Position numbers and translations under genes: made by a program. Below, in pieces: positions 2,904-48,621 of a stretch of DNA of 64,000 nt (its first letter is position 1; each line of letters starts with the position of its first letter). The stretch spans positions 1 through 64,000 of the forward strand of contig LGRX02035261.1 in assembly GCA_001247695.2 (NCBI GenBank). The letters are read 5' to 3'. The notes beneath the pieces are model-generated. The model saw only the letters and a program-made list of their open reading frames with translations, was not told the origin of the DNA and made no database searches. This DNA comes from Cymbomonas tetramitiformis (Eukaryota > Chlorophyta > Pyramimonadophyceae > Pyramimonadales > Pyramimonadaceae).

Positions 2904-3110
2904 ATCATTTCCCCTCATCCCCTCATAGCTGCGTCTCATTCCTCATGCTTGCCCATCACCCCCTCTTCCGTCCGGGGGTCCGTTGTCCGACTGTTTCTCA
3001 CCGTATATTTGGTGTTCTCTGTGCCGTAGCTTGCACACCCAAACCCACAAGCAAATCCAAATTCCTCAAGATCAGCTAGGCGCCGATTTGCACACCGCCA
3101 GCGAAAGGCG

Positions 3111-4229
3111 ATGCTTTCCCAGGCGGCAGCGCAAGATATTCATGCCGCACCCCACCACCACCTCAACACACCTCTGCAGTTTCCTGGTTTCCATCACGAC
3201 CTATCGGTGGAATCCCTTTCAAAACGGTTTCTGAGTGGAGATCCGGATGCATGCCTCAGCAATCTTGACAAAATTGCTAAACAGTGTGGAGTGCCAAGAG
3301 TCTCACGCCAGCAAGTAGTCACGTACCGCGCTCCTCAGGACAGCCAAGCTACAGGACAAGGCTCCTACGGAAGCGTCCTTCTACACTGCACCCTTGACAA
3401 AACCGAGAGGGCCGTTCTGAAGGACTTCACCGACCCTGCCCTCCACCGTCGCCTGCGGCACTGTGCGGTGGAGTTGTATATGAACACCGTGGCCCATTTC
3501 GCGGCTCCCACAACCGTCGTTCCCTGTTTAGGATACGGAGCCCAAATTTGTCCTGATCACTCCGCGTTCCTCGTCATGAAATATGGCGGGGAGACCCTCG
3601 CCGATTTCCTTACTTCCCGCGGATCAGGCATACCAATCCAGGCGATGCGCCATCTGGTCATCGATTTGTTTCGCGGCATTTCAGACCTCCATGCCGCGGG
3701 AATCGTGCACGGGGACCTGAAAGGTAACAACGTGCTTGTGCAAGAAAATCTGCCCGATGTTGGTGGACACAGTCTCAAACTCATAGACTTTGGGTTGGCC
3801 CGTTTCCACCGCACCGATTCAATGGCACCGCTTCCCCCAGTAAGCTTGCCTTCCGCAACATGGCAGCCCTCTCATACAGCTCCAGAGTCATCATTTGCAA
3901 ACAAAACCACTCACAGCGACATCTGGGCGTGTGGCGGGCTCGCTATGCAAATACTCATGGCCAGTCGCCTTTCCTGGAAGGACATGCTGCAGTTGGCTAA
4001 CAGCCAGCTTGACAACAACAGAAAATTTTCGCCTTGGAAAGAAGATAGTAGAGTTTCCAAACAGCTCACCATGCTCGTGAATTCGTGTTTCGACTTCAAT
4101 CCTGCAAAAAGACCGGCTGCCTCCAAGTTACACTCAACGTTCAGCGCCTCTCGGATACAAAAGTGTTCTGTGGGGAAAGGAGTCGATCCCCACGAGCGTT
4201 TAGTCCCTGGACATTTTAACCCTCTGTAA
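3111..4229 (+). CDS. Protein kinase-like protein
   Basis: A 372-residue protein starting at an ATG. Visible kinase landmarks: glycine loop GQGSYGSV (82-89), probable ATP lysine K104 in AVLKDF, helix-C glutamate E121, catalytic loop HGDLKGNN (200-207) with D202, K204 and N206, metal-binding DFG (226-228), APE-type triplet (257-259) and DIWACG (270-275). The set is complete, so it should transfer phosphate from ATP to protein. HGD in place of HRD means it lacks the usual catalytic-loop arginine. The N-terminal 75 residues match nothing I know. It is single-exon, lies just after tandem repeats, and is followed about 200 bp later by a hydrolase gene on the same strand. Substrate and pathway are unknown. 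It could be a gene once carried by a transposon. Confidence 0.82.
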   Translation: MLSQAAAQDIHAAPHHHLNTPLQFPGFHHDLSVESLSKRFLSGDPDACLSNLDKIAKQCGVPRVSRQQVVTYRAPQDSQATGQGSYGSVLLHCTLDKTERAVLKDFTDPALHRRLRHCAVELYMNTVAHFAAPTTVVPCLGYGAQICPDHSAFLVMKYGGETLADFLTSRGSGIPIQAMRHLVIDLFRGISDLHAAGIVHGDLKGNNVLVQENLPDVGGHSLKLIDFGLARFHRTDSMAPLPPVSLPSATWQPSHTAPESSFANKTTHSDIWACGGLAMQILMASRLSWKDMLQLANSQLDNNRKFSPWKEDSRVSKQLTMLVNSCFDFNPAKRPAASKLHSTFSASRIQKCSVGKGVDPHERLVPGHFNPL

Positions 4230-4450
4230 ATAATAATCAGTGTGTGTAGCGCGGTAGTTTGTAATAATAAGTGTCCCTGTATACAATATATTACCGTCTG
4301 GCCGAAAGTCTTGGTTGTGGTAATGCCCGTGTTGTGAGCAACTGTTGATTAAAGTGTGGTCATAGTCACTCTGTGCAATGTTCTGCGTGGTGCGTGTTCT
4401 CGTATTTGGTACAGATAACCCATAGCCGATAACCTTACTGGTTACACAAC

Positions 4451-5752
4451 TTGGGTTCTGCTGGTCAGGTGAATGTCGTGCGAAGCTCGTTCATCCCGGC
4501 TCAACCTGATTGGGTCTGCCCTGATGACAGCCTTGCCGCGCTCAAGGGGAAGGTGGTCTACCGAAAGCTGATGCCTACCTTCCGATACCATGTCGGGTTT
4601 GTCTGTCCGGGCATTCCGGAGGGTCTGCATGTCCTAGACTTGAACACCGTCCGGACAATCTGCCTACTGGAAGCACTGTGGCAGGCGAAGACCGCCAAGG
4701 AGGGCCTGCCCGGGGACCGTCCTTCGAAAGAGGCTGCGATGCAGTTCCTCATTGATAACGACACCCACCTCCGCAAGCATGATCACCACCAACAGCGGGT
4801 GCTGGATGAGGCTTTCGCCGGTCACAGCCTGGTATCCGTGTTAGAAGTCGATTCTAGAAGGGACGATTTCAGCGCCCCGCATCACTTCTACGCATGGTTC
4901 GTGGTTCCAGCCAAGCGGGTCTGGCTCTTTCCAGTACTGTCATTTCCGTTGCGCCACCACCGTGGAACTGTGTATGCCGTAAAGGACTGCGATCTATCGC
5001 GTGGCCGTACTCCCAAATGCGGGTCACGTCCGGTTCCACACCAGCACCCCGGGTATCAAATGTTGCATATCCAGGGCGTTTCTTCCAGCAGTGGCAACGC
5101 AGATCCCCGTTGCCTGTCAGTGCTCGTCCTGGATGCTCAGGCTGCGCATGGCGCGGACTTCAAACCAGAACACCGACAAACGATTCAGAAAGTTTTGACT
5201 GCCTGTCGCCATGCCAACATCCCTATCAATTGGACACAGTGGTATCGGCCATGGCAAACGCAGCCCGCCACAGATGCATTTTTTGATGATGGAAGAGGAT
5301 ACTTGACCTCTTCAGCCGGTGTCGCTCACACCGGAATTCCGCCAGAGTCCGACGATTTTCTGACAGACCTTGGGCCACATTCAGCTGACGAACTACGGAA
5401 CCACGCCTTTCTGTGTGGGAACATGAATGCGTTCGACTCGGAAAACATATCCATGTCTCACGAGTCCTGCTATAGAAACGTGCGAGATGCGGTGTCTTCT
5501 CAACACCCAACACCATCAGCAATTGTTATCATGGGGGCGTATGTCTCACAGTGTGTGCTGCACACGACCCTTGCGGCGGTGCAATTGGGATACAGTGTTA
5601 TCATCGTGGAAGACGCATGTGTGTCATATAGGACCCTGCACAACATTGAGCCGAGTAACTTGGCTGCCACGCTAGACGGACACATGGATCTCCTGCATCG
5701 GTGTGCAGTGGTGTTAGATTCTGCCGACTTCATTAAGAACATCTCGGTATAG
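4451..5752 (+). CDS. Isochorismatase-like cysteine hydrolase domain protein
   Basis: The frame is open from 4433 to 5752. The codon at 4451 is TTG and the first ATG is at 4571, so either the protein starts at 4571 or an upstream exon joins here, perhaps at the AG ending at 4466. The C-terminal half has the isochorismatase-like fold signature: VLVLDAQ with Asp near residue 228 counting from 4451, and GAYVSQCVLHTTLAAVQLG followed by VIIVEDAC, with the nucleophile Cys near 368. The third triad residue, normally Lys before a [SN]AF motif, appears to be Cys in LCGNMNAF. Family members hydrolyse isochorismate, nicotinamide or carbamoyl compounds; the substrate here is unknown. The N-terminal 200 residues are unrecognised. 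Confidence 0.65.
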   Translation: MGSAGQVNVVRSSFIPAQPDWVCPDDSLAALKGKVVYRKLMPTFRYHVGFVCPGIPEGLHVLDLNTVRTICLLEALWQAKTAKEGLPGDRPSKEAAMQFLIDNDTHLRKHDHHQQRVLDEAFAGHSLVSVLEVDSRRDDFSAPHHFYAWFVVPAKRVWLFPVLSFPLRHHRGTVYAVKDCDLSRGRTPKCGSRPVPHQHPGYQMLHIQGVSSSSGNADPRCLSVLVLDAQAAHGADFKPEHRQTIQKVLTACRHANIPINWTQWYRPWQTQPATDAFFDDGRGYLTSSAGVAHTGIPPESDDFLTDLGPHSADELRNHAFLCGNMNAFDSENISMSHESCYRNVRDAVSSQHPTPSAIVIMGAYVSQCVLHTTLAAVQLGYSVIIVEDACVSYRTLHNIEPSNLAATLDGHMDLLHRCAVVLDSADFIKNISV

Positions 5753-6683: not shown

Positions 6684-8694
6684 ATGAAAGTTGAAAGTGT
6701 TATACGGAAATGCCCCGTGGCATACGACGTGGAGGCTAAGCAGATTGTGGACAAAACCACGAGTAAGTATTGGGCAAACAACGCCGCGGCCCAAGAGCGT
6801 TTCGACATGTGCGTGAAAACGCTGCGAGAGCTGCATCCCGAGCTGGATGAAGCCACTGCAAAAACGAAGATCATTCGACGTCTGAACAACCGGCGTAATC
6901 TGGGCCCAAAGGGCACCACAATCGAAATGCGTCAAAACCGTGACATCCAGGCGGTGAACGCATTCAACAAAGAATCCCAGAAAAAACGCCCGGACTTGGT
7001 GATTTCCCTTACTGCATGTGCAACAGAGGTTGTTGGGACACCACCACAGGCGAGCCCAGGCGTACGCCCCGCAGCAGGAGCGCCACTAACGGCAACCGAG
7101 CCTCGGCGGAGCCCACGAAATCACGCCACGGTTAGTATACCCGCAGGACCAGAGGTGGCCAGGACTCCGCAAAGGGGGAGCCCAGGCGTACGCCCCGCAG
7201 CAGGAGCGCCACTAACGGCAACCGTGCCTCGGCGGAGCCCACGAAATCACGCCACGGTTAGTATACCCGCAGCACCAGAGGTGGCCAGGACTCCGCAACG
7301 GGGGAGCCCAGCCACTGCAGGAGCGCCACAACCGGCTACTGTGCCTCGACGGAGCCCACGAACTGCCGCCACGGTTACTGCACCAGCACCAAAGGATGCC
7401 AGGGCACCGCATCGGGGGAGCCCAGGAGCGCGCTCGGAACCAGGAGTGCCACTAAAGGCAACCGTGCCGCGACCGAAAGCAAGGGCACCGGAGGTGACGG
7501 AATATGAAGAGCAGAGGCTGATGAAGATTGCTGGTAGGTGCCCTATCCATGTGTGCCCTTGGCATGTACACATACATGGATGCATACCTGCAAATGTACC
7601 TGCATCGCCGACGGAGCGTTGAGGAAGCGCTGGGGGCGGGTTTGCTTATTGCGGTGTCAGGCAACAAGCGCAGGCTGAGCGTAGCATTCGGTATGGTTCC
7701 AACAGCATACGAGGACTTGATGCGGGAAAAGCAGGTGCTACTCACGCAAGTTCAACAGTTGGATGAAAAGGTATTGATTGAGCACGTGCAGCGCGTAGCG
7801 CGGGAGACTCGGAAACGAGTTCCCATGACAGCCCAGGCCGTCTTCGAGGTGGTACCGATGCCCGGGTATAAACTACTTGGAACGCAAAATGGAACGGAAG
7901 GATGGCAGCAGGAAGCTCTGGGGGAGTTGCGGGAGCAGTGGACTAAGGACCTGCGAAAACGCGCCAAGAAGTGTCCGAGTCTGAAAGCTGCTTTCAAATT
8001 GAGTGTGTCTCAGGCGAACACGCAGAAAGCGACAGCATCTGTTGCACCGCGCCCCAATCGTGCAGCTCGAACGGTGCAAAGCATGGCGGAGGATGCCGAT
8101 GACGACGAGGATGACATGTGCAAGGTGATCCGAACCGGAAGGGGGCTACTCACGAAGAGAATGTCGATGACCGCGACGGCAAAACGTAAGTGTATGGTAA
8201 AAGTGCACACCGATGAGGCAATCGAAGCTTTCGAGACCGATTCGCATGCCACGTTTGGTGACTATTTCGGGGCGGTGGTGAACGATATGCACGGTACCGA
8301 GCGAGAGGTTGATCTCCACGTGGGGAAAACGGTGATTGAACACGAGACCATCGGCGCAGCAGCACAATGGCGCAGGATGGGATTTCCTGAGATAATGCGA
8401 TGCCACCTAGTAGCGGCGGACGACGGAGATGAAGATGGCAGGGTGGAGCCACTGGCAAGGTTCGACTACAGTATTTTCCACGGCGACTTTAAGGTTGAGT
8501 CTTGGACGTTCGAGGAGCTGGTTGGCATGCAAATGAAAGTCGTTCCTGCTATCTCGGTGAAACGGAACTACGAGGTTGCGTGGAGGGACGAGGCTGGTTT
8601 GGAACGCGGCGTGTTGACCGCGGCAGAGTGCCGTGGTCACTTCGGCATGGACCGGATTCCAGCGCTGCGCACGCGGCAATTTTGGACGCCATAG
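6684..8694 (+). CDS. Unknown protein with SPRR-type basic repeats (two exons)
   Basis: Two overlapping open frames fit one gene with one intron: exons 6684-7533 and 7661-8694. The donor is GTAGGT at 7534 and the acceptor TTTGCTTATTGCGGTGTCAG ends at 7660; phase 1 matches on both sides. The first ATG in frame is 6684; the open frame itself begins earlier at a GTG. Exon 1 has a charged N-terminus, then 42-residue Ala/Pro/Arg repeats with RRSPRNH or RRSPRTA. Such S-P-R-R motifs are known in minor-groove DNA-binding proteins. Exon 2 has a basic region, an acidic stretch (DADDDEDD) and no domain I recognise. It lies on the same strand just before the tnp2-like gene and may be that element's second protein. 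Function is unknown. Confidence 0.5.
7052..7460 (+). repeat. In-frame 126-bp repeat coding the 42-residue unit
   Basis: The anchor GAGCCCAG sits at 7052, 7178, 7304 and 7418. Spacings are 126, 126 and 114 bp, and the last unit has lost 12 bp, so all changes are multiples of three. This length control suggests selection on the protein. A decayed copy lies at 9096-9185. Confidence 0.85.
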
Positions 8695-9021: not shown

Positions 9022-12000
9022 ATGGAGCGGGGCACATTGATTGCAAATACAGGCAAACAGTTCGAGAGTCGCCTGAATGTCACATCCGTTGCTCGTGGCT
9101 CGATGGAGCCCACAAACTCACGCCACGGTTACTGCATCAGCACCAGGGGTCGCCGGGGCACACCAACGGGGTGGACCAGGAGTGCATTCTGCACCAGGAT
9201 GTACCTAATGTATCATGGAACCATGTTGAGGTGTGGCATCTGCGCAGGAAAACAGGAGTGCTGGGCATCGGTGATGTTCACGGAGGACGAGCTCATGCTG
9301 ATTGTGCAGCGGAGCCAAGAAGCTCACACCAGCATACGAAGCACAATGCGTGCGGTGCGTGAACTACCTGCAGAATGTCGAGGCCCTATACCGGCTGGCG
9401 AAAAAGAAGTGCTGGCGGTGATTAAATCCTGGCTAACGGAACATGGGGGGACCATAGACAATCGGTATCGTGTGATCTTGCAGCCAATGCTTTTGGGGAA
9501 TGGTGTTACCAGCAATGCTTTTGGGGAAGCTAACCCGTCAGCAAACAGCGATTGTGAAGTACATGGACTCCCTCCTAACGTGGAGGTCTTCTTCGACGAG
9601 GAGCTGGCGAAAGGCCGAATTTGTCTAATGGACAACCTTGAGGAGGAGTCGGACGAGGAGGACCATGGAATAAGTGTGCAGAAACTGCTAGATGCAGCTG
9701 AGGCCGCCCCGGATCCAGAGGACGAGGTCACAAGTATATTCCAGCAGGTAGTTGCCAGGCCCCCATGGCCACCGATCGATGTGCCACGCTGTTAGTTTAA
9801 GACTACTCGCTTCCTGATACTGACGACCATTTGGTGTTCACTTGCCATTGGATGTAGATATTCCAAGAACACAACTGCCAGGAAGAAGATCTGTGGAGCG
9901 ATGCCGCCTGGGAGCTGGAGGCATTGCTGCCTGAAAAAACGGAGCTTAACTTCAACGCGGCGGCCGGTGACCCCTTATTTGTGGGGGATACGGAGGCCGA
10001 CTGCTTGACCGTGGGTGAGGCGGTCTGCTACTTTATGGAGCTGCGAAGGGCGCTGAATTGGTCGAGGCCATCATTTGATAGGTTTTTGACGGTCATGATC
10101 ATGCTTATGGGGGGACCCGGAAAGTGCAATCTTCCTCGAAGTCTGTATAGAATGAGGAAGTTTTTGAACACCAGGTCGCACATGGACCACGCGGTGCATG
10201 TATGCGTGAATTGGTGCCGACATTATCCCCCAGGCGAGGATCCAAGCTCTTGGGACAAGAACCAAACCTGTGACACCGTACTAGAAAAGGACTCTGAGGG
10301 TGGCGCGCTGCGTACGTGCAAGGAGAAACGGTTCGAGGTGATACGCACCGTGCATGGAGAGGAGATCCGTCCACGGGATTGGTATTATTACTTTGCACCG
10401 GAGCGCACTATACGACGTTGGATGCGTGACCCGGAGTTCTGCAAGCTACGGGCCCGGCGGGATGCCCGCACTGGACGTGACTTCTGGACGGCAGCGCTGG
10501 CCAAACACATTGATCACGTCACAGGAGGTGCCTTGCTATCGCCGTCATCGTTTACAGCTGAAGATCCTCCTCCGCAGGGGGGGGATCCAGGTGTGGAGTA
10601 CGCGGAGCACCGCTCGATGGTAATCTCGCCCGGGGCGGACGACGCCCAATTATGGGTCTCTGACATCGGGTGCGACATCGGCCGGCACAGTTGCTGTAGT
10701 GTACTGATTTCACTGTTCCTTTGTGTAAATATAGTGAGAAATGTTTTTATTGCGAGCAGGTCATACTCCATGGGCGTTGGTGTGCTTAAGTGCGATGATC
10801 TGCATATCACGGTACGCCCAATCAGAATGTCGATGCAGTGACGCGTTGGTTGGCCTATGGGGTGACAAAGCTTGAATGTAGGCAATACAGTGAGACGCAC
10901 ACACACACACACACAGAACCACAGGATGGATTCATGTGTGCGAGTAGATTCCATGATTCATGTGTGGAACAGTGCATTAGCAATCATGTTCATCGCATGT
11001 ATGTGTAAGCAAACCCAAACTGGATGCTTGCAGGCTCGGCAACGTGACAAGTGGCATCGGAATCTGTGGATCACACGCGGCCCTCGGCAGAAGGAGAAGA
11101 ACCCTCTTGTGATATGGGGGCAATTTGAAAGGGATATGCAACGCCTTGCGACGGGATTTGACGTGTACGACAGTTTCCTCAAAAGGACTTACACGTTGAA
11201 AGTATTCTTAGGAATGGTGCATGCGGATTCGGTGATGCGGATCACAATGGGGCAGTTCATGGGAGTCGGCAGCTACAGTAAGTCGCGGTCTATAAGAAGC
11301 CGGCGAATTTTCGCTAGCGCTAGCGGCTTAATCTGACGGACCGAAATTTTGGGCTTAGCGATGCCGATTTCTTATTGGTGCACATACGAAACTCTTCTTG
11401 TAGCGTGAAATATTTCTTAATCGTGCATCATCCAATTCCCCGATCTGATCTAGCGTGTGCGATTTCTTATTTAAGTATTAATGAATGATGCATTGTTGAT
11501 CAGGCGTACCGTAACGATTTCTTATTGGATGCCAGATTGCCAGTGATGCACCTATATATATAACTTGTCTCAGGCTCGTCCTAGCCTACGTGGTTTCTTA
11601 TTAGGGGCCTTAGACGTCCGGGGTCAACTTCAAGGTCTACTATGGGGTGGACGACCGTGAAGCGAGCCACTGCCTCGATGAAGTGAGGTATGTTGGTGGT
11701 CTGCCTGAAGCTGAAATGGCTAACGCCACAGATGGATCTTGGGTAGCACTGCAGAAGGCAAAGTAGGTTGATGCATGCAACTCACATTGCTGAATGCGAT
11801 GGTTATGCTAAGTGATGTTAGGACGAGACACTCAACTGCACTATAAGACCAGACTGGATGTATGGCTACTGTAAGTCCAGGCTGGATAGTATATGTGCTG
11901 TAAGACCAAACCGAATAGTATATGTACCGTACGACCAAGCTGGATACTATATGTACAGTAACACGCCCGTCTATTATCATAGTCGCATTATCTATGTGCT

Positions 12001-14031
12001 TAAATATTCCCCGCGCGAAATTGCCTTAGTCACAAATTCATAATGCTAATGTGTGATATACCAACCACGATAAAGACCACTATACTTTTCCGTGCTGCTT
12101 AACGTTTCGATAATTTCTTAAAAGATATGCGTAATATGAGTATAGGGTTCGGTGAACCTAGCGTCTCGATTTCTTAATAAGGGGAGTTTTCATATCTCTG
12201 GTTTGAAATTGCTTGCGGGTGGTTTCTTATGGGTTTCTTAGTTTTTGGCGAGGAATCCAGCGGGTGGTTTCTTGTAGGTACCGTTTCTTATAGACCGCGA
12301 CTTACTGTACCGGGCGGATGCGTACAGCCTTTTCGAAGGGACGAGCGGCCCCGGCGGGAAGGGAATGTATTTCAAGGGGTATGCCAAGCCGGTCAAACTA
12401 CAAATGACAACAGTGCAGGGAAAACCTGAGGTATATGCCGATGAACAGCTGCTCATGCTTTCTAAAGAGGGGCATGCAGCGTTGGTTTCGAGAACCATTC
12501 ATGGAGGGGAATCCCCGCAATCTACTGGACGGCACGGGCGTGGCGCGCTCGAGCGAATCCCATACTTCGACCCCATGCATGGTTACGCCGTCCCCTTCGG
12601 CCACTGCGTCTTATACGGGGTGGTGAAGAGATTTTGGAAGCTGCTGATGGGCAAAGTGACAGGGGTACCCGACTCAACCTTAACTTTGCCTATGTAAGAC
12701 GATTCAGGACGAAATGCAAGCTCGGGCGAAGCTCGTGAAACCTCCGCACGACGTCATACGCAAGTACAACGATATAGTGCAGTATTTCGGTGAGTGTACG
12801 AAGTAGGCAGAGCAGGGACGTGTGCCACTTCTTGATGCAGTTTCCGTTGTTGAGCTTGCTATGAGAGGCGTTAGGAGACCTATGCGTAGAATGTCTTATA
12901 CTAAAGCACCTAGTTTGATCCTGAGTGACAGGCATGTACACAATGGAGGATGTCCTGAACTGGGTCGTCTACTTCAGCCCATTGGTGATCGGTGATCAAC
13001 TCGCAAAATGGAATATGGCGATGGAGGATGCCTGGCAGCACCTTCGCCGAGCCGTGCTGCACTATGTGCGAGCTTCGGGCACGCACACTGGGTGGACTAC
13101 TGCGGACGTGGAAGCAGCTAGAGTCGCAGCACGCGAACACCTCCGGGAGCACGCAAATATCCTGGAAAACACAGGTATAATGAAGCTGCTGACATACAAC
13201 TTGAGGCTGGCAGTGGTGTACCTGTTTCGGCAAGAACACTATTTGGGTGAGGTTGGTGCCGCCATGGAGATGTGGGTGGAGCGTGCCATCCAGCGTCTAA
13301 AGGGTGTGGCAAAGGATACGCACGTGAAAAACCGACCTGTGGAAGCTCTCGTGAATTCTATATGTGAGGACGATGCCCTAGATGACTACTGTTACAGATA
13401 TCCAAACTTGCGCAAGTTGGATGTCTTGGCGGCAAAGTTATTTGGCAAGATCGCTGTCAGCCGTGCAACGGATCCCGCGGCAGAAGATGAGGATGCGCCC
13501 TGCTATTTTCTGGGCGCAGGGAGGCACCTATCTCCCACAACTCTTTCATGCAACCTTCGCCTGCAACTTGATGGTCTGGTGTCAACTTACACGAATGTAA
13601 TGCCTGGGGATTATGAAATCATGGTCTACCTCAGGATGTCCCTAGACAAGGAGGTGATGTTTTCTTCCCAATACATGCGAACCACCAAGCGAATCTCCTA
13701 CCACGTGTCTCTCTCTGGTACCGTCAGTGGGTTTGGCGAGCTAGGTCTGCCAGCAGGCTACCCTTACGCACAAATTCTTGCATACTACCTTGTGAGAAAC
13801 TCTGCAACACAGCGGGTGGTGTGTCGCCTAGCACGGGTCGTTGCATACAGAGAAGTCGAAGACGAGTACTACGCAAAGCAAGGGGTAACGGTGGTGGACA
13901 AACAGAACGGTGTAGAGCTCATCGTTCCATGTGCCGCCATCCTCACGAAAGCCATGTTTCTTGATCGCCCTGGCAGTCAGCACTACCACGTCATGCACCT
14001 GTATCATCAAATACGCACAGGCAGTTACTAA
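9022..14031 (+). CDS. tnp2-like transposase, five exons, interrupted by a mariner-like element
   Basis: Frames join cleanly as 9022-9747, 9858-10733, 11034-12655, 12699-12789 and 12932-14031. Donors are GTAGTT, GTGAGA, GTGACA and GTGAGT; acceptors end TGTAG, TTGCAG, TGTAAG and GACAG; all phases agree. The start is uncertain, with an ATG at 9022. Matches to the tnp2/Transposase_21 pattern: a GPRQK block, GFDVYD, a TLKVFLG...AD block, PYFDPMHGYAVPFGHCV..GVVKRFW and TYNLRLAVVYL...EMWVERAIQRLK. The expected role is cut-and-paste transposition of a CACTA/Plavaka-type element. Exon 3 contains the TA-flanked element at 11276-12307. The N-terminal part is acidic (EEESDEED) and poorly matched. Terminal repeats of the parent transposon were not found. 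Confidence 0.6.
9096..9185 (+). repeat. Decayed copy of the SPRR repeat DNA
   Basis: This stretch, with GGAGCCCACAAACTCACGCC and CACCAGGGGTCGCCGGGGCA, resembles part of the 126-bp repeat at 7052-7460, but it lies inside the first tnp2 open frame. It suggests the two genes were duplicated or rearranged together. Confidence 0.6.
11276..12307. mobile_element. TA-flanked Tc1/mariner-like element with splice sites in its ends
   Basis: The left end reads CAGTAAGTCGCGGTCTATAA and the right end is its reverse complement; the match runs about 23 bp. TA lies on both sides (11274-11275 and 12308-12309), as in Tc1/mariner target duplications. The 1,032-bp body has no transposase I can see and many TTTCTTAT motifs, densest near the right end. 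Removing the element plus one TA restores the tnp2 reading frame. Removing 11278-12293 as an intron (GTAAGT to TTTCTTATAG) also keeps the frame and adds six codons. It is either a recent disruptive insertion or an intron donated by a transposon. Confidence 0.85.
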
Positions 14032-14215
14032 TGGGACCACCGGATTCACCTTATCATACCCAGCGCAGCCAGCTTCCAACATCGTCCAGTAAGTTGAGCA
14101 AACCTTCTCTGAAGTATTGCCCAATAGCCTTAGTAGCAAATGTAGAGGAGCACGTGTGTGGAGCCAGTGAAGGACTTTCTCATACAGTATGCACCAATGG
14201 CAGAGCTGCAAATTA

Positions 14216-14565
14216 GGGTTTCCTATATATCTAGCCAATAGCAGTGCACCGTGCCTATGGTTTCCTAAATATTGGACCAATGAAATAGCTGCAAATTAGG
14301 GTTTCCTAGATATCTAGCCAATAGCAGTGCACCGTTCCTATGGTTTCCTAAATATTGGACCAGTAAAATTGCAGTATATTAGGTTTTCCTAAATATCTAG
14401 CCAATAGCAGTGCACCGTTCCTATGGTTTCCTAAATATTGGACCAATAAAATAGCAGTATATTAGGTTTTCCTAAATATCTAGCCAATAGCAGTGCAATG
14501 TGCCTATGGTTTCCTAAATATCTAGCCAATAACAAAGCAGTATGCCTCAGATTTCCTAAATATGA
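14216..14565. repeat. 83-bp dimeric repeats with CCAAT motifs
   Basis: AGCCAATA occurs at 14233, 14316, 14399 and 14482 (83-bp steps), then at 14524 (a 42-bp half step). Each unit is two related halves, TCCTAAATATCTAGCCAATA and TCCTAAATATTGGACCAATA. It sits 200 bp after the tnp2 stop codon and may be the subterminal binding-site array of that transposon. Confidence 0.85.
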
Positions 14566-17754: not shown

Positions 17755-17784
17755 TCACCTTCCTAGCGTAGGAGGCGAACAACG

Positions 17785-19416
17785 ATGAGCGCTGTTGGGG
17801 TAGATCTCGGTTCTACTTACTCGCGGGTAGGTGTGTGGCGGAATGATGGCGTGGACATTATTGCAAACGTGAAGTCATGCGTGACTTTCACGGACACGGA
17901 GACCGCGATAGGAGATGCCACGGGGTCCCAAAAGGCGGGTAACCTGCGCAATACCATTTTTGGCATGAAGCGGCTCGTTGGGAGGAATTTCGGTGATGCG
18001 GAGGTGCAGGCGGACTGCAAGCTGTGGCCCTTCACTGTGAAGGGGGGCGACGCTGGTAAGCCCTTGTTGCAGGTGGAGTATAAAGGGGAGGAAACAAAAT
18101 TTTCACCTGAGGAGATATCCTCTATGATTTTGGGGAATGTGAAGGAGGCCTCTGAGGCGTTTCTCGGCAATAAAGTGACGCACGCTGTCGTCACTGTCCC
18201 CGCCTATTTCAACGACTCCCAAAGGCAGGCGACAAAGGAAGTAGCCTCTATGGCCGGCTTGAAATGCATGCGTATTCTCAACGAGCCTTACGCGGCTGCC
18301 ATGGCATATGGCTTGGATAAGACGGGCGGGGGTGAACGTAACATCCTCACATTTGATCTTGGCGGCAATGCCTTGGATGTTTCTCTTCTGACGGTCGACG
18401 ACGGCATCTTTGAGGTGAAAGCAAATACAAGAGACCCTCACCTTGGAGGTCGTGACTTTGACAGGCATCTTGTGCAGCACATCGTCCAAGAGTTTAACCT
18501 CAAGTATAGGAAGGACATTAGTGGAAATCAGCTTGCCCTTCAGCAGCTTGGAATTGTTTGCGAACGAGCCAAGCGTGCGCTTTCTTCCGCTGAGGAAGCC
18601 TCAATAGAGGTCCATCAGATCGAGGGAGTGGACTTGAAAACGAGCCACATCCGGATGCAGTTCGAAGAAATAAACTGTGATCTGTTTCACAGATGCTTGC
18701 AAACTGTTGAAAAGTGCTTGATCGAAGCTAAGATAGACAAGGCGTCGGTTCACGATATTGTGCTTGTCGGTGGCTCAACCCTAATTCCCAGAGTACAAAC
18801 CCTTCTGACGGAGTTCTTCGATGGCAAGGAGCTCTGTAAGTCTATCAACCCGGAGGAGGTTGTGGCGCACGGGGCAGCGATTCTGGCGGCGACCTTGTGT
18901 TACACGAATGATGAAAGTTCTGAAAGGTTACGGAATTATTTGATGCTTGACGTCACTACTCTCTCACTCGGAATAGAGACTGCCGGCGGTGTTATGACTA
19001 CAGTTATCGCGAGGAACGAGACCATGCCTATCAAGCAGGAGCTAGTATTTTCCACCCATGAAGACGACCAGCCAGGGGTGCTCATCCAGGTCTTTGAGGG
19101 CGAGCGCTCCCTCACCCGTAACAACAAGTTGCTGGGGGCATTCGAGCTCAGCGACATACCCCTTGCACCCCGTGGTGTTCCTCAGATTACCGTGTGTTTC
19201 GATATCGATGCAAATGGTGTTGTGAACGTATCGGCACACGAAAAGTCCACCGGCCAGCAAAACATGATAGCAATCGCCAACGATCAAGGGCGCCTCTCAA
19301 AGGAGGATGCTGAACATATGTTGCAGGATGCTGAGAGACACAGGTATGAGGACGAGGAAGAGAGAAGGAAGGTTGAAGTCAAGAACACCTTGGCGAACTT
19401 TGCCTACAACACGTAG
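17785..19416 (+). CDS. Divergent HSP70-family chaperone, C-terminally short
   Basis: A 543-residue, single-exon protein from an ATG. It begins [14 protein letters not shown] (ATP site) and has [45 protein letters not shown] and the linker-side [15 protein letters not shown]. These mark an HSP70 ATPase and substrate-binding beta domain of eukaryotic cytosol/ER type. Oddities: about nine residues are missing after IIAN; the usual DLGGGTFDVS is [10 protein letters not shown] (191-200), so the phosphate-2 loop threonine is lost; the protein stops after NTLANFAYN, without most of the alpha-helical lid and any EEVD or KDEL tail. It may be a specialised or decaying paralogue with altered ATP cycling. 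The open frame argues against simple decay. Confidence 0.88.
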
Positions 19417-30395: not shown

Positions 30396-32389
30396 CCACC
30401 TTCTTAGATCGATTGCGCATACATCAAAGCCTCTAGGAGCACACTTATACGGCAGGCGACGGCACCCGAGAGTGCGGCATGTGAACAATCCCCAAAATCG
30501 GCATGCGAGTGCGATGGCACGCAAATAATAGTGATGCAAAAAAAAAAGGTTGGCCGATAGTTGGCCGTCGCAAGCGACCATGAGGAAGCGAGGTGAAAGC
30601 TTGGCCACTTCGGCCGAAGGCCGGCTGATGAATTGCCGGCCGTAGGCCGGCTTGGCCGATAGCTGGCCTATGAAAATAGCGAATGCGGGCCGTTGGGGAA
30701 AAGTAAGGCTATGTTCTCTGAACACAATTATTACCATTCAAAACCATAAATCTTATTGAAAAATGTAAAAACATAAGTGATTAGCTAATCACAAAGAGAA
30801 AAACGCAAATATTAATCAAAAACTGAGAAACCTCTTTGAATATGCAGGCTATTAAACTGATATCAATCTGATTTCTTTTTTGTGGGCTCCTTCTTCAAAA
30901 CACACCACATTTTATCCCTGCCATAATCTGCTAAGTCCAAAGAATGAAAATACAGTAACTTATCATCTGAATAGTAGATCGTCTTTAGTCCCTTATTGTC
31001 TCCATGCGCACATATGTACTTGTATTTGCCGATGTACCATTTGTTTTTGAATCGATGAGCAACTTTCGCGGTCTTCTTGAGTATGGCATGTGACAAAGTG
31101 GCAGGCATATCCTGCAGCAGCCATCCCTCTGGCACATCGAAATCGGATGAGAACCACTCATCGGGTGCTTCATCCTCATGCTCCTCATTCTGACTCTGTG
31201 ACTCGGTGGGAGCCTCCTGCTGCACACTTCCTTCTTCGCGCAATCCCTCATTTGTGATCTCATCTGTAGGGTCTGTATCAAGAACTTCGGAAATTAGTGC
31301 AGCCTCGGCAACTCTCCTGGTAATAAGCTTTCCCTTATAGTGGCTCTTTCTGCGCTTGGCCCCAGATGATCGTTGGGAAGTGCGCGCTTTCAGTGCCTCC
31401 CACTTTAGATATGCACGGTAGCACAAGTCCTGTACCGCCCGCTTATCTTTCGTTTGAGGACCATTTATGCTGATCATCATAAGCGCTGAAAGTGTGTGAT
31501 CCAACAATCTGTTCCGAAGCGCAGTCTTAATAATGCCCATCTTTGAAAAGCCTCGCTCACAACAAGCAGCGTTCAATGGTAAGATACAACGAATGCCCAC
31601 AAAAAACTGAATATCTGCATATTCTGAAGGGTCCTTGGCCAGTCTAGGCGCCCAAAACTGCTCAAAGGTGTGCTCCCATATACGGTTGCCGAACATGATT
31701 TCTTTCATAGTGTCCCACTGCTCCTGCACTTTCTGTAAAGATGAAATAGGTACGTCAAACCCACTATGCACTTTTGAGAAATGCTCCACGAGTATAGCCA
31801 ACTTCTCGTCCCCATAATCAGCTAAGTCCTCCGCACTCTTTGGAAACTTGCCAGGGCTAAAAATATCCAACGCTGACATAAGAGGCTGAGAGGGGAAACG
31901 TTCTCCAAGCTCTGCGTGCAGGCTAGAAGCAAAGAGCTTGATATGCAAAAAACATCGGTCGAGACTCTCAGGGTCCTTTTTCACCTGGATGACTCCGTGC
32001 TCGTGAGTGAACTCAAAGGTCGTAGAACTTTCAGGAGTTGTTGCCAAGTTGCGCTGGAGTGCTTTGAGTGCAGTACCTCCTGGCTTTGCAGGCTTCATAT
32101 AATAAGCCTCAAGACCAACTCTAGTTCCAGATATGAGGTCCCCTGCAGCCTCAAAATCAATCGTATCATACAGTAATCACTCACCGTTAAGAAAACAGGG
32201 ATTTTGGGCCAGCCAGCCGTACTCATCGAGTTGGGTACCCCCCCCTCCCCCCCCGCCAGCGTCAGCGTCATAAGAGAACTCGAAGAATAGTAGATCGCTC
32301 ATTTTCAACCAGCCAGCTTATTTCTTCACTCAAGACGTGGACACTCACCTCAGCCCAGCGACTTTCTTAAAATTTTCACACCGCCCGAC

Positions 32390-32677
32390 ATGGACCCAGA
32401 GAGCCGTGCGCAGCTGCGTGACCTGAAACAGGATTTTGTCGACGAGATTATTTCTCAAGAAGACTACTTGCAACTTAAAGAAATAGTATTGAACGCGGTT
32501 AAATCTAAGGCATCAAGCAAGAATGAAGCCCCCCGTGAGCCTCCGTCTCAGCCCACGCAGCCGAGGGAAGTGTCCCCTGAGATCGTGGAGGTTCTAGAGC
32601 TTCGTGATATTTCCGACAAAAACATTTCAGTGGAGGAAAGTGTACAAGCCAGGTACAAGCCAGTACCTCATATATAG
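32390..32677 (+). CDS. Small protein with SHOCT-like helix pair in the mariner-like element
   Basis: From an ATG, 95 residues. LRDLKQDFVDEIISQEDYLQLKEIV near the N-terminus resembles the SHOCT pattern (LxxLKxLxxxGxISxEEYxxxKxxLL). The middle is Pro/Glu-rich. The frame ends in the tandem repeats, so the C-terminus is repeat-derived. Possibly a captured 5' gene fragment. Expression is unknown. Confidence 0.4.
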   Translation: MDPESRAQLRDLKQDFVDEIISQEDYLQLKEIVLNAVKSKASSKNEAPREPPSQPTQPREVSPEIVEVLELRDISDKNISVEESVQARYKPVPHI

Positions 32678-32840
32678 GCTGAATTTCAGCTTGTACATCG
32701 CCTCACATATAGGCTGAATTTCAGCGCATATATAGGCTGAATTTCAGCCTATATCTGAATTTTAGGTCATATATAGGCTGAATTTCAGGTGATATATAGG
32801 CTGAATTTCAGCTCATATATAGGCTGAATTTCAGCTAAAT
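32664..32840. repeat. 22-24-bp tandem repeat
   Basis: About six copies of ATATATAGGCTGAATTTCAG with small spacers, inside the mariner-like element. Confidence 0.88.
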
Positions 32841-35800
32841 TTTACCTAAATTCTATTATATTTTCTTAAATTTCCAGCCAATTTTCTTAAATTTAAGAAA
32901 GTGCATTCTCGGTAGTCAGCCAGCACGGTTATCTCTTATTTCGGTCATTTTCTTAGCCGAAAAAGCCAGCCAGCCGTACTCATCGAGTTGGGTACCCCCC
33001 CACCCCCCAAACGCTGGCTAGTTTCTTAACGTCGGGTTTTCTTAAAGGTGAGTGATTACTGTACTGAAAGCACCGACTCAAAGTGTTAAGCTTGCCCAAA
33101 ATATCCTTATAAAAGCACAAGGTAGCCAAAAACTGAAGCGAAGTGACATGTTCATACAACATTTTGGCAACATCACTCTCGTGTGCAGCCTCTTCGAACT
33201 CTTCAACTAAAGCAGGAAGGGTGCGATACACAGAGTCAGCTGAGATACCCTTCGATAACCAACGAGTTTCTACGTCCTTTTCGACACCAGTTGGAGCAAC
33301 GAAACCAAGGGCCTTTTGTATTTCTAGAAACCGTGATTTCCGCAGTCCTGAACGACAAAAATAAGTAGAAATAGCGTGAAGTGTGACGTCAAAATTCTCG
33401 AAAAACACAATGCCAGAAGCAGCATCTTTTGAACACAAAGCCAGTTTGTGTGCTTGGCAATGAAAAGATAGTAAATATGGCAGACCTGAACGTAATCTAA
33501 CCGCCACACCGGAAGTAGACCCTGTCATAACACTTGCACCATCACTCCCAAAAGCAAAAAAACGCTCATATTCTAGGTCATAGCCGAGAACAGTTTCCTC
33601 AATTTTGCGTGTGATGCTAACCGCGTCAGCTTTTGGCAAACCATGCAACCCAAGAAAACGAACGATCGGCTTTCCTTCACGGATGAACCACACATACATG
33701 ATCATCTGCTCCACAGTAGAAACATCTGTGCTTTCGTCTACACCTATGGAATACGTAGGCGACAGACGAACGTCTTGCAAAATATCGTCACGAACCACAT
33801 CTGCTAAGCACATTATGAACTGGTGGCACATATCTTTGTTCCTGTAAATATCAATTCCGATGTTCATGGTTTTGCCCAAATCATCACAAATATACAGATT
33901 TTCAACAGCGTTTGTGAAACTCTCGAAATTGGCGGTTGCGACATCTGTTTTGGCTAGTGTGTATGCGATATTCATGCAGTTCAAGACTCCCGTCTTCTCT
34001 CGAAGCACCGCATTTTTCTTCGCTATCTCCCACTGCTCACATTCCTTCCTAGCATTCTCTGTGGCGTGTAAGTGCTGCTTCTCAGCCTCGTGCTCTTTGA
34101 TCCGCCCCAATCGAATACTGGAGCAGCCGAGAGTAAAAGAATTCTGAAACCCAAACTGAATGCAAATTGAGCATGTCATCACAGATTTCTCTTCATCATA
34201 ATCGAGCCAAGATCTATTATCCTTCCACATAGGCAAAAACTTACGGTCTTGCTCCTTGCGAGGTTTCTGCTGAACCGTAACAAAATCGGAATGATCATTG
34301 GTCACAGCTCCGTGCTTTCGCTTGTAACCGGGACGGTTTCCCAGATTTTCTGAGGGCACCTCGATAAGTTTGCCTTTCCCTTTAAGATCTGCGACACTCG
34401 CAGAAGTAGAGGCTGCAGGGACACTATCAATTTGTAAAGCTGAAGAATTTGTCGGTGCCTGGGTCTCAGACTGTGCAGCACGTTTCGCTGATTTCGTTTT
34501 CTGCACAGCAAGGCGACTGCGACTAGTTACAGTCCTTTTGGTTGGAGGAGCTGCGGAATCTTTCCAAGACAAAAAGGATTTCGAGGAACGCTGGCTAGAA
34601 CTCGGCTTATCAGCGGATGCGGTTGAAACAACTGTGTCATGTGAGACTGTTATTGGAACCTCATCCACTGTGGTGACTAGAACTGTCTGAGTTTCTGTAT
34701 AGCTGGAATCTGCGTATGGGAAAAAACGGCGGAGTGCGAAATATATCAGGGGCGCAGCAGGAGATGCTGTTTCTGTTTCTGTTTCTGTTTCTGTGATGGC
34801 AGCGTCTTGAATTACAGAAACAGTGTTGTGCTCCCCAGCCCAAGTGAGGCCAGAGACATTCTGCGTGGCGTAAGGAATCTGATCTTCGATAAGATATGTA
34901 TCTGTTTTGCCATGCGAGGGGTCTGAAGAAAAGAATATCGGACGCTGAGCGATGAAAAAATTGTGTTGAAAAGCGGGGATCTCTTCTTCTAAATTAATGA
35001 ACTCCTGTTCTCGCACGGTGAGATCAATCTGTCCGATTGAGGAACCTGTTTCCAAAGCTGAAGAAGAACCACTCCCAGCAGTAGGAGACGCCGAAACGTA
35101 GGAAACTGTAGTAAAGAAAAATAGAGGTTAAAAAACGAGCTCCATTCTGCTTCGTAATACCATACTGCTCCGACGGTCTGCGCTGAAAACCTACTTGTAG
35201 AATGAGTGAATTCTCTCCGCTCGCTGCAACTCGTAGCATGCAACTCGTAGCATATGGCCCTTCGGATGGGAGAAAATCGCGAGTACTCGCGGTCAAGCTC
35301 ACGGTACTCGCGATATGGATCAGATTACGGATCCAGGGGCGTAATTTTTTCTTTTTTCTTTTCAGATTAGGGATCGGCCCCGAGTCGGTCCAATCTCGCT
35401 GAGCCTGATATTTCGAAATACGTTCGGCCCCCAGTCGGTCCAGTCCCGTTCGATTCGGCCCGGCTAAATCGAGGTGGGCATCCAACGATTTGTACGATCG
35501 GCCCGATGTCGGCCCAATCGGCCAGCACCATTTTGGGTCATTTCCAGGGTGAATGCGGTTCGGCCCCAAGACGATTTCTCCATCGGCCCCACGTCGGCCC
35601 GGACCTCTTTTTGGCGACTCAGTTCGGCCCGGGGCCGGCCAATCGCGGTAAGATATCTTCCCTGGCAAAAATGACCGAGCTCCAGGGAGAACCCACAACC
35701 TGCCTGGACCCACCAACTGAAAACAGAGCACATTTTCAGGTGGGAGGCGCACCATGACCAGGCACAACAAACTGAAGAGGAACAAGCGATAATACGGGAC

Positions 35801-47922: not shown

Positions 47923-48215
47923 TGCTGGATTTGGCACGCCGACAGTGTCATCGTCATCTGTGTCATCACCGATATGGCTCGACTACTATGACTTCTTCAC
48001 TGTCATCAGCGCCATCTCCGAGATCGACTTCGGTAGTCAGACAGTTCATAGCATCTATCATTTCCACACCTGACACCTTAGGGGCTGTCATCACACTCTT
48101 TCGGCGGAAGCTATAACACATCGTATTATCTTGTGTATAGCTTCACAGTTTCACGGTTGACATATGCGAGCGTAGCACCTGACTTGTAGTGCTTCACTGT
48201 GTGTTTGTTTTCACA
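47923..48215 (+). repeat. 3' LTR of the Copia element
   Basis: 293 bp, from TGCTGGATTTGGCACGCC to TTGTTTTCACA. It is followed by the target duplication CCGTG. Confidence 0.93.
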
Positions 48216-48220
48216 CCGTG

Positions 48221-48621
48221 CGTGGCCCCACGCCCTTATAAAGGCGTTTAGCCAGCCATAATTGGCGGTAAATTAATAACCACCTAATAAGGCCGGTGGT
48301 GGGCGCAAACCTGCAAGAACACACACAGTGAACGAAGCACTGCAAACGGGCATGCAACTCTCGCATATGTCAACCGTGAAACTGTGAAGCTATACACACG
48401 ATAATACGAAGTGCAATAGCTTCCGCTGAAATGAATGTGACGACAGCCCCTAGGAAGTCAGGTGTGAAAATGACAGATGCAAAAATGAACTGTCTGACTA
48501 CCGAAGTCGATATCGGAGATGGCGCTGATGACAATGAAGTAGTCAGAGTAGTCGAGCCGTATCGCGGTATCGGTGATGACACAGAAGACTATGACACTGT
48601 CGGCGTGCCAAATCCAGCACT
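48221..48621 (-). mobile_element. LTR and leader of the older inverted element
   Basis: On the minus strand, 48621-48312 is a diverged LTR (GTGCTGGATTTGGCACGCCG...) and 48311-48221 is its leader, GGTTTGCGCCCACCACCGGC. The younger element split this leader. Together with the 3' LTR it makes an inverted repeat with arms of about 300 bp across 47930-48620. Confidence 0.85.

Follow-up and report, generated by a model that had tools for sequence, protein, structure and literature searches.

The window analyzed here, that is, the whole 64,000-nt stretch of the green alga Cymbomonas tetramitiformis (contig LGRX02035261.1), contains a 1,032-bp element that interrupts an exon of a mobile-like gene and whose inverted ends resemble the two borders of an intron. 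The element proper occupies 11276-12307, with the target dinucleotide TA read directly at 11274-11275 and 12308-12309. An earlier reading made from the letters alone (hereafter, the sequence-only reading) had proposed this TA-flanked element, with GTAAGT in its left end and an acceptor in its right end, and had taken the right end for the reverse complement of the left. Direct reading of the coordinates and ends confirmed both points: the inverted ends are perfect over 23 bp, or 25 nt counting the TA, and the first mismatch is position 26. The features of the locus are as follows.

11034-12789, plus strand: exon of the mobile-like host gene, split by the element at 11275/12308; the end at 12789 is placed after the relative P0012, and sibling copies are uninterrupted.
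11274-12309, plus strand: probable non-autonomous pogo-type element with the TA target duplication on both sides, from direct reading and genome copies.
11276-11298, plus strand: left terminal inverted repeat, CAGTAAGTCGCGGTCTATAAGAA, with the donor-like GTAAGT at 11278-11283.
11368-11600, plus strand: left subterminal array of five TTTCTTA motifs on one strand.
11614-11766, plus strand: transposase gene remnant, the last 50 codons and a TAG stop, 90-94% identical to three Cymbomonas proteins.
11840-11961, plus strand: 29-bp tandem repeat in 4.2 copies, 3' of the transposase stop, with two TGTAA motifs (11870, 11899).
12114-12290, plus strand: right subterminal array of five TTTCTTA and one TTTCTTG, on the same strand as the left array.
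12285-12307, minus strand: right terminal inverted repeat; the acceptor-like TTTCTTATAG (12284-12293) ends at 12293.
12691-12696, plus strand: TA-TG-TA where siblings have TA, private to this copy and frameshifting; probable excision footprint.

The 17-nt end, allowing up to three mismatches, occurs twice in the window, a number reached in 0 of 100 shuffles. TTTCTTA is present ten times on one strand of the whole element and is absent from the other, compared with a mean of 0.12 and a maximum of 3 in 2000 shuffles. Between the two arrays, the translation of 11614-11763, which is followed by TAG, is 94% identical to CYMTET_54912 and CYMTET_37166 and 90% identical to CYMTET_44798 (last 50 residues). 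The Pfam domain DDE_1 was detected above its cut-off in CYMTET_37166 and CYMTET_44798; the Pfam scan gave no match for the shorter CYMTET_54912, nor for the 52-residue remnant by itself. An Rfam scan of the window returned nothing at gathering scores.

The search for genome copies of the terminal repeat, for which the sequence-only reading had called, was carried out on an assembly totalling 851.7 Mb, split over 25,745 contigs. It returned 208 + 216 = 424 exact occurrences of the 25-nt TA-plus-end sequence and none of the reversed control; in bacterial and archaeal genomes the 25-nt end was found 0 times. The family was sampled as 40 scored matches, the window copy included, of 506 candidates, and the 39 others were fetched with their flanks. 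Both ends are intact in 35 of these 39 (L172, L176, L177 and L178 being the four without), which together with the window copy makes 36 complete copies. TA lies directly on both sides in 35 of the 36; in the exception, L149, a second CGACTTACTG, a 10-nt repeat of the end, precedes the TA on the right, as if the end had been duplicated. Nearest-neighbor identity among the complete copies is 97.7-100%, reaching at least 99% in 31 of 36.

A full-length relative, L179 (G000 C1730:33262-38016), measures 4,151 bp and has TA borders and the same 23-nt ends as the window element. A single frame of 1,001 codons without a stop encodes its transposase, identical to P0016 at 100% (293 residues), to P0017 at 98.5% (472 residues) and to P0018 at 90.4% (583 columns); P0017 and P0018 contain DDE_1 above the Pfam cut-off. 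Searches with P0018 found no match in viral contigs and 0 in PDB sequences. L179 also has same-strand arrays (TAAGAAA / TTTCTTA) at both ends, the ten motifs being confined to a single strand. Aligned to it, the window element matches at 92-93% in its two ends and at 87.5% in the C-terminal coding piece, and about 3 kb of L179 is missing between element positions 340 and 341. Since the ends and the C-terminal piece match and the interior is gone, the window element is a deletion derivative of an L179-like element. Like a miniature inverted-repeat transposable element, it is short and has the ends of an apparently autonomous one, yet deletion derivative is the better term because it is 1 kb long and retains a coding remnant.

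We therefore interpret the window element as a non-autonomous, internally deleted transposon of the pogo group (IS630-Tc1-mariner), nested in an exon of a high-copy mobile-like gene, and give this reading a probability of about 0.87. The earlier label, Tc1/mariner-like, stands in that a TA-target element of the Tc1/mariner-pogo assemblage does lie in the exon; the DDE_1 domain of the full-length relative would place it in the pogo group. The choice of pogo over another branch is our presumption from PF03184. Shared with the pogo group are the TA target, CAGT-type inverted ends, DDE_1 (PF03184), deletion derivatives and, probably, a short excision footprint; the 1,001-codon frame, the same-strand TTTCTTA arrays and the CAGTAA-N11-TAAGAA layout described below differ from it, no search for prior descriptions of these traits having been made. 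Movement would be by cut-and-paste, with transposase supplied in trans by full-length relatives, and the enzyme would recognize two end blocks, CAGTAA at the cut and TAAGAA/TTTCTTA inside. The element may still be mobile. It was recently amplified, and its intron-like look is most likely incidental.

The host gene spans 9858-14031 and has no Pfam family. The sequence-only reading had called its exon tnp2, a name that found no backing in Pfam: the modelled protein had one unrelated match at E=0.2, the four exon pieces had none, and among six relatives one, P0006, showed a sub-threshold DUF4218 at E=0.098. Among Cymbomonas tetramitiformis protein models, CYMTET_29402 is 99% identical over 72% of the query, and P0012 (CYMTET_29403) is 93% identical over 93% of the queried region. 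P0012 was considered as proof of a second allele at the locus and rejected, the simpler view being that it is one of many sibling copies; an intron at 12665-12707 in the first gene model was likewise rejected, as P0012 and the siblings read through it. A 481-nt piece of the gene gave 40 scored matches of 271 candidates, and each of the 39 others has a length of 477 nt and an identity of 99%. Exact copies of the 27-nt target site in its empty form, with a single TA, number 52 + 44 = 96 in the genome (reversed control, 0). Five siblings read at the DNA level were uninterrupted in every case, with CCTAAGACG in place of the CCTATGTAAGACG of the window copy. On account of these many near-identical siblings and 96 exact empty sites, we regard the host as a high-copy, mobile-like gene. 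Downstream of it, 83-bp tandem repeat units occupy 14190-14563.

At the window copy, the frame is locally compatible with both precise loss and splicing of the element. The empty-site reading, with the element and one TA left out, gives ...GSY|RADAYSLFEG... and stays open around the junction. The spliced reading, without 11278-12293, is ...GSYNRDLLYRADAYS..., with six extra codons. The predicted splice remainder is CA + ACCGCGACTTACTG + one TA, 18 nt in all without a stop in any frame, and it is the same in either orientation, each end being the reverse complement of the opposite one. In spliced transcripts it would appear as CAACCGCGACTTACTGTA, with junctions CA|GTAAGT and TATAG|ACC. Frame-keeping was rejected as strong evidence, as one splice pair keeps the frame by chance in one case in three, and any exonic TA insertion should have an empty site that preserves the frame.

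The claim that the frame is kept, with six codons added in the spliced reading, holds locally for both readings and fails about 385 nt past the insertion. There, the 4-nt insert at 12693-12696 brings in a stop at 12695-12697 in the spliced and the empty-site reading alike (...LTLPM*). Splicing of the element would consequently not restore this gene copy, as the private insert breaks its frame. The TA-TG-TA form occurs once in the genome, the siblings having TA in 5 of 5 read, and it additionally creates a donor-like GTAAGA. It probably is the footprint left when a TA-target element with ...TG ends was excised; for Tc1/mariner elements, footprints of 2-4 bp are given in PMC7913693. To judge from TA-TG-TA, the host copy has probably met TA-target elements twice.

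What happens to transcripts of such a gene can be envisaged in two ways, both compatible with a pogo-type insertion. Provided that the gene is transcribed, part of its transcripts may be spliced at the two sites without the element being an introner, i.e., an element that spreads as introns. GTAAGT matches the usual intronic donor consensus, the right end offers a pyrimidine tract and TAG, and of the 16 AGs past 11330 that are preceded by 15 bases with nine or more pyrimidines, only that at 12293 leaves a product that is open as far as 12664. Against this stand the exonic side of the donor, which is ACA rather than the usual CAG, the 15 other pyrimidine-rich AGs between the donor and 12293, and the inverted ends, through which the donor and the 3' remainder could pair; we consider such splicing possible but rather doubtful. 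Alternatively, the insertion may be a simple knock-out, with transcripts ending early inside the element or being degraded, and to this we give even odds. The retained transposase stop and its downstream region, with TGTAA at 11870 and 11899, are in line with it, since UGUAA serves some green algae as a poly(A) signal, although so short a motif at two copies per roughly 1 kb is near chance.

The sequence-only reading had gone further and proposed a candidate introner: a family spliced at GTAAGT/TATAG with six in-frame codons added, its genic insertions tolerated and accumulating. The splice signals do lie within the ends in both orientations. Long open frames in the joined flanks of each copy were used as a stand-in for genes (200 codons by default). 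Of the 36 complete copies, 17 fall in empty-site frames of at least 200 codons, compared with 40% among 690 TA sites from these same flanks (p=0.49) and 37.5% of 1,500 TA sites of the window (p=0.30). Nine of the 17 are sense and eight antisense, showing no strand bias. The set was then enlarged by a further ten copies about 1 kb in length, picked in the order of their contigs with shorter or longer pairs skipped and read with 590-nt flanks. The 200-codon limit was reached by 20 of 45 copies and by 422 of 1,009 TA sites (p=0.76), and with the limit set at five values between 100 and 300 codons p ranged from 0.18 to 0.76, without significant enrichment. The enrichment of genome copies to which the introner proposal had also been tied was looked for through the long-frame proxy, and no significant excess was found.

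The identity of the neighboring genes points the same way. A Pfam scan of 20 of the 37 located open reading frame (ORF) pieces, from 17 of the 20 copies, matched eight pieces from seven copies and left twelve without a match. The domains were a reverse transcriptase (L156); a reverse transcriptase with RNase H, protease, H2C2 and a Dam-like domain (L162); an integrase core just below the cut-off (L153); a chromodomain (L170); a PIF1 helicase (L151); DUF7869 (L168); and Herpes_ori_bp (L155). Four of the seven matched copies lie in retrotransposon-type frames and 0 in a recognized ordinary host gene. RNA from such frames could be copied back into DNA, yet the 20-nt spliced scar has 0 exact matches in 852 Mb, which is weak evidence against the introner reading. 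A sister subfamily with GTAAAA at the donor place has 171 exact ends in the genome, its sister status being taken from the ends and the spacing of about 1 kb. Ten of its copies (one 236-bp pair skipped) have the same ORF context as the 45 (Mann-Whitney p=0.97, at low power).

Several observations weigh against our interpretation. L179, at 87-93% identity, is a relative of the window element and not its direct parent. GTAAGT and TATAG, and hence the 18-nt remainder, are preserved in each of the 36 complete copies, with one pyrimidine-tract change in L160, and a remainder that is orientation-independent and open in three frames is what an introner would also display. In the long-frame comparisons, 150 codons against window TA sites gave p=0.06, the lowest of six tests, and the point estimates for the 45 copies were slightly above control at every threshold. 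The ORF test is itself a proxy, and with 45 copies and a high background (422/1,009) a modest enrichment would be missed. Still, the same ends are found in the full-length transposon, so their conservation needs no introner role and transposition suffices. Taken with the lack of ORF enrichment and strand bias, the similar behavior of the GTAAAA sister, the missing scar, a host gene that is itself high-copy and mobile-like, and a window gene copy that would stay broken, this makes the introner reading very improbable, and the proposal was not borne out.

The relation between transposon ends and splice signals becomes clearer from a second element in the window.

32171-33061 (32169-33063 with TA), antisense within a minus-strand ORF: second TA-flanked element of 891 bp, with CAGTAA-N11-TAAGAA ends.

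With this element and one TA left out, the host ORF is a single stop-free frame of 1,123 codons, in which zf-C17orf113 scores above and DUF4371 below the Pfam cut-offs and which we take to be hAT-like. The genome holds nine further full-length copies of the element at 99-100%. It contains TTTCTTA 6 + 2 times, and the two elements together account for 18 of the 22 TTTCTTA in the window. In its own orientation, TTTCTTAAAG is placed for an 18-nt remainder that has stops in two of the three frames. The element is antisense to its host gene, and in the gene direction the nearest AG would leave 13 nt. The idea that the TTTCTTA array exists for splicing was rejected, as the array is present both in the full-length transposon and in this second element. 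A further TA-flanked structure, an inverted repeat of 259 bp whose 24-nt ends (TATAGCTTCACAGTTTCACGGTTG) match perfectly, lies at 48136-48394.

In both elements, either end shows CAGTAA from position 3 and TAAGAA from position 20, and the 11 bases between them differ. This layout, TACAGTAA-N11-TAAGAA, recurs at 7,399 ends in the genome (control, 1). Through CAGTAA, each element with these ends has GTAA where a donor would lie. Where the ninth and tenth bases of N11 are CT, as in 2,856 of the 7,399 ends, the opposite end has the sequence TTCTTAnAG, for a predicted splice remainder of 18 nt; the full GTAAGT is present in 548. The first 100 layout ends by contig number comprise 27 end types, which are related sequences and not independent events. 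The AG occurs in nine types (47 ends), GTAAGT in two (14 ends) and both in one (13 ends), the window family. With random bases, one end in sixteen would have the AG; its observed frequency is higher, an excess that could stem from common descent or from function.

The CAGTAA and TAAGAA blocks are presumed to be cut-site and transposase-binding motifs. They contain the splice-like signals, which explains the presence of the latter: CAGTAA would yield GTAA at the donor place, and the inner TTTCTTA a pyrimidine tract with, in some families, an AG. We accordingly see in the splice-like pair of the window family the strongest instance of a by-product that is graded across the whole group. A bolder proposal is that of a large pogo-type group whose end spacing supplies donor, acceptor and a constant 18-nt in-frame remainder, with the GTAAGT/TATAG family, the best equipped of its branches, acting as a facultative, orientation-independent TA-target introner; this appears very unlikely.

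The layout pattern is also met in at least 120 stretches of viral contigs. A search of these contigs with the 15-nt end found 11 stretches, which we attribute to chance: none has the 25-nt end, the nearest being 22/25 in three, and no inverted partner scores above 13/18.

Several known systems resemble the window element in part. In the introners of Aureococcus that have terminal repeats (Gozashti et al. 2022, PMC9860276), both splice sites lie inside the element and splicing adds four codons, comparable with the internal sites and six codons predicted here. Their target duplications are 8 bp long as opposed to TA, and their splicing and recurrent genic occurrence are reported, whereas the window family is known from sequence. 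The main text of that paper does not contain "mariner", "Tc1" or "Cymbomonas". The introner elements of Amoebophrya, as described in PMC7789003, likewise have inverted repeats at both ends and no internal transposase gene; their splice sites are mostly non-canonical and their direct repeats 3-5 nt, in contrast to the canonical signals and TA of the window element. For introners together with mariner, the literature search led to a single paper, on a fungal genome; among the matches listed for introners with Tc1, pogo or TA targets, none uses the word introner, from which we do not claim absence from print. A 2025 paper is said to treat the transposon classes behind introners. Transposons spliced out of transcripts include Tc1 in C. 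elegans and Ds and dSpm in maize. These share with the window element the terminal or subterminal splice sites and the insertion into exons, but there splicing was demonstrated, while here it is predicted.

These findings call for caution with introner calls made from sequence, as an inverted-end transposon with a GTAA terminal block can mimic an intron in any frame that it enters. They also provide a natural experiment: two subfamilies in one genome, with ends differing by two bases, carry GTAAGT and GTAAAA as donor. With annotation and RNA, this pair would make the effect of splice signals on the fate of transposons in genes measurable; PMC5741210 and PMC10675990 mention transcriptome data for C. 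tetramitiformis.

Elsewhere in the window, identical 171-codon ORFs at 21-536 and 619-1134 form a tandem duplication, followed by repetitive ORFs to about 3000. ORFs with protein kinase (3030-4229), isochorismatase-domain (4433-5752) and HSP70 (17767-19416) assignments are possible host genes amid the mobile elements.

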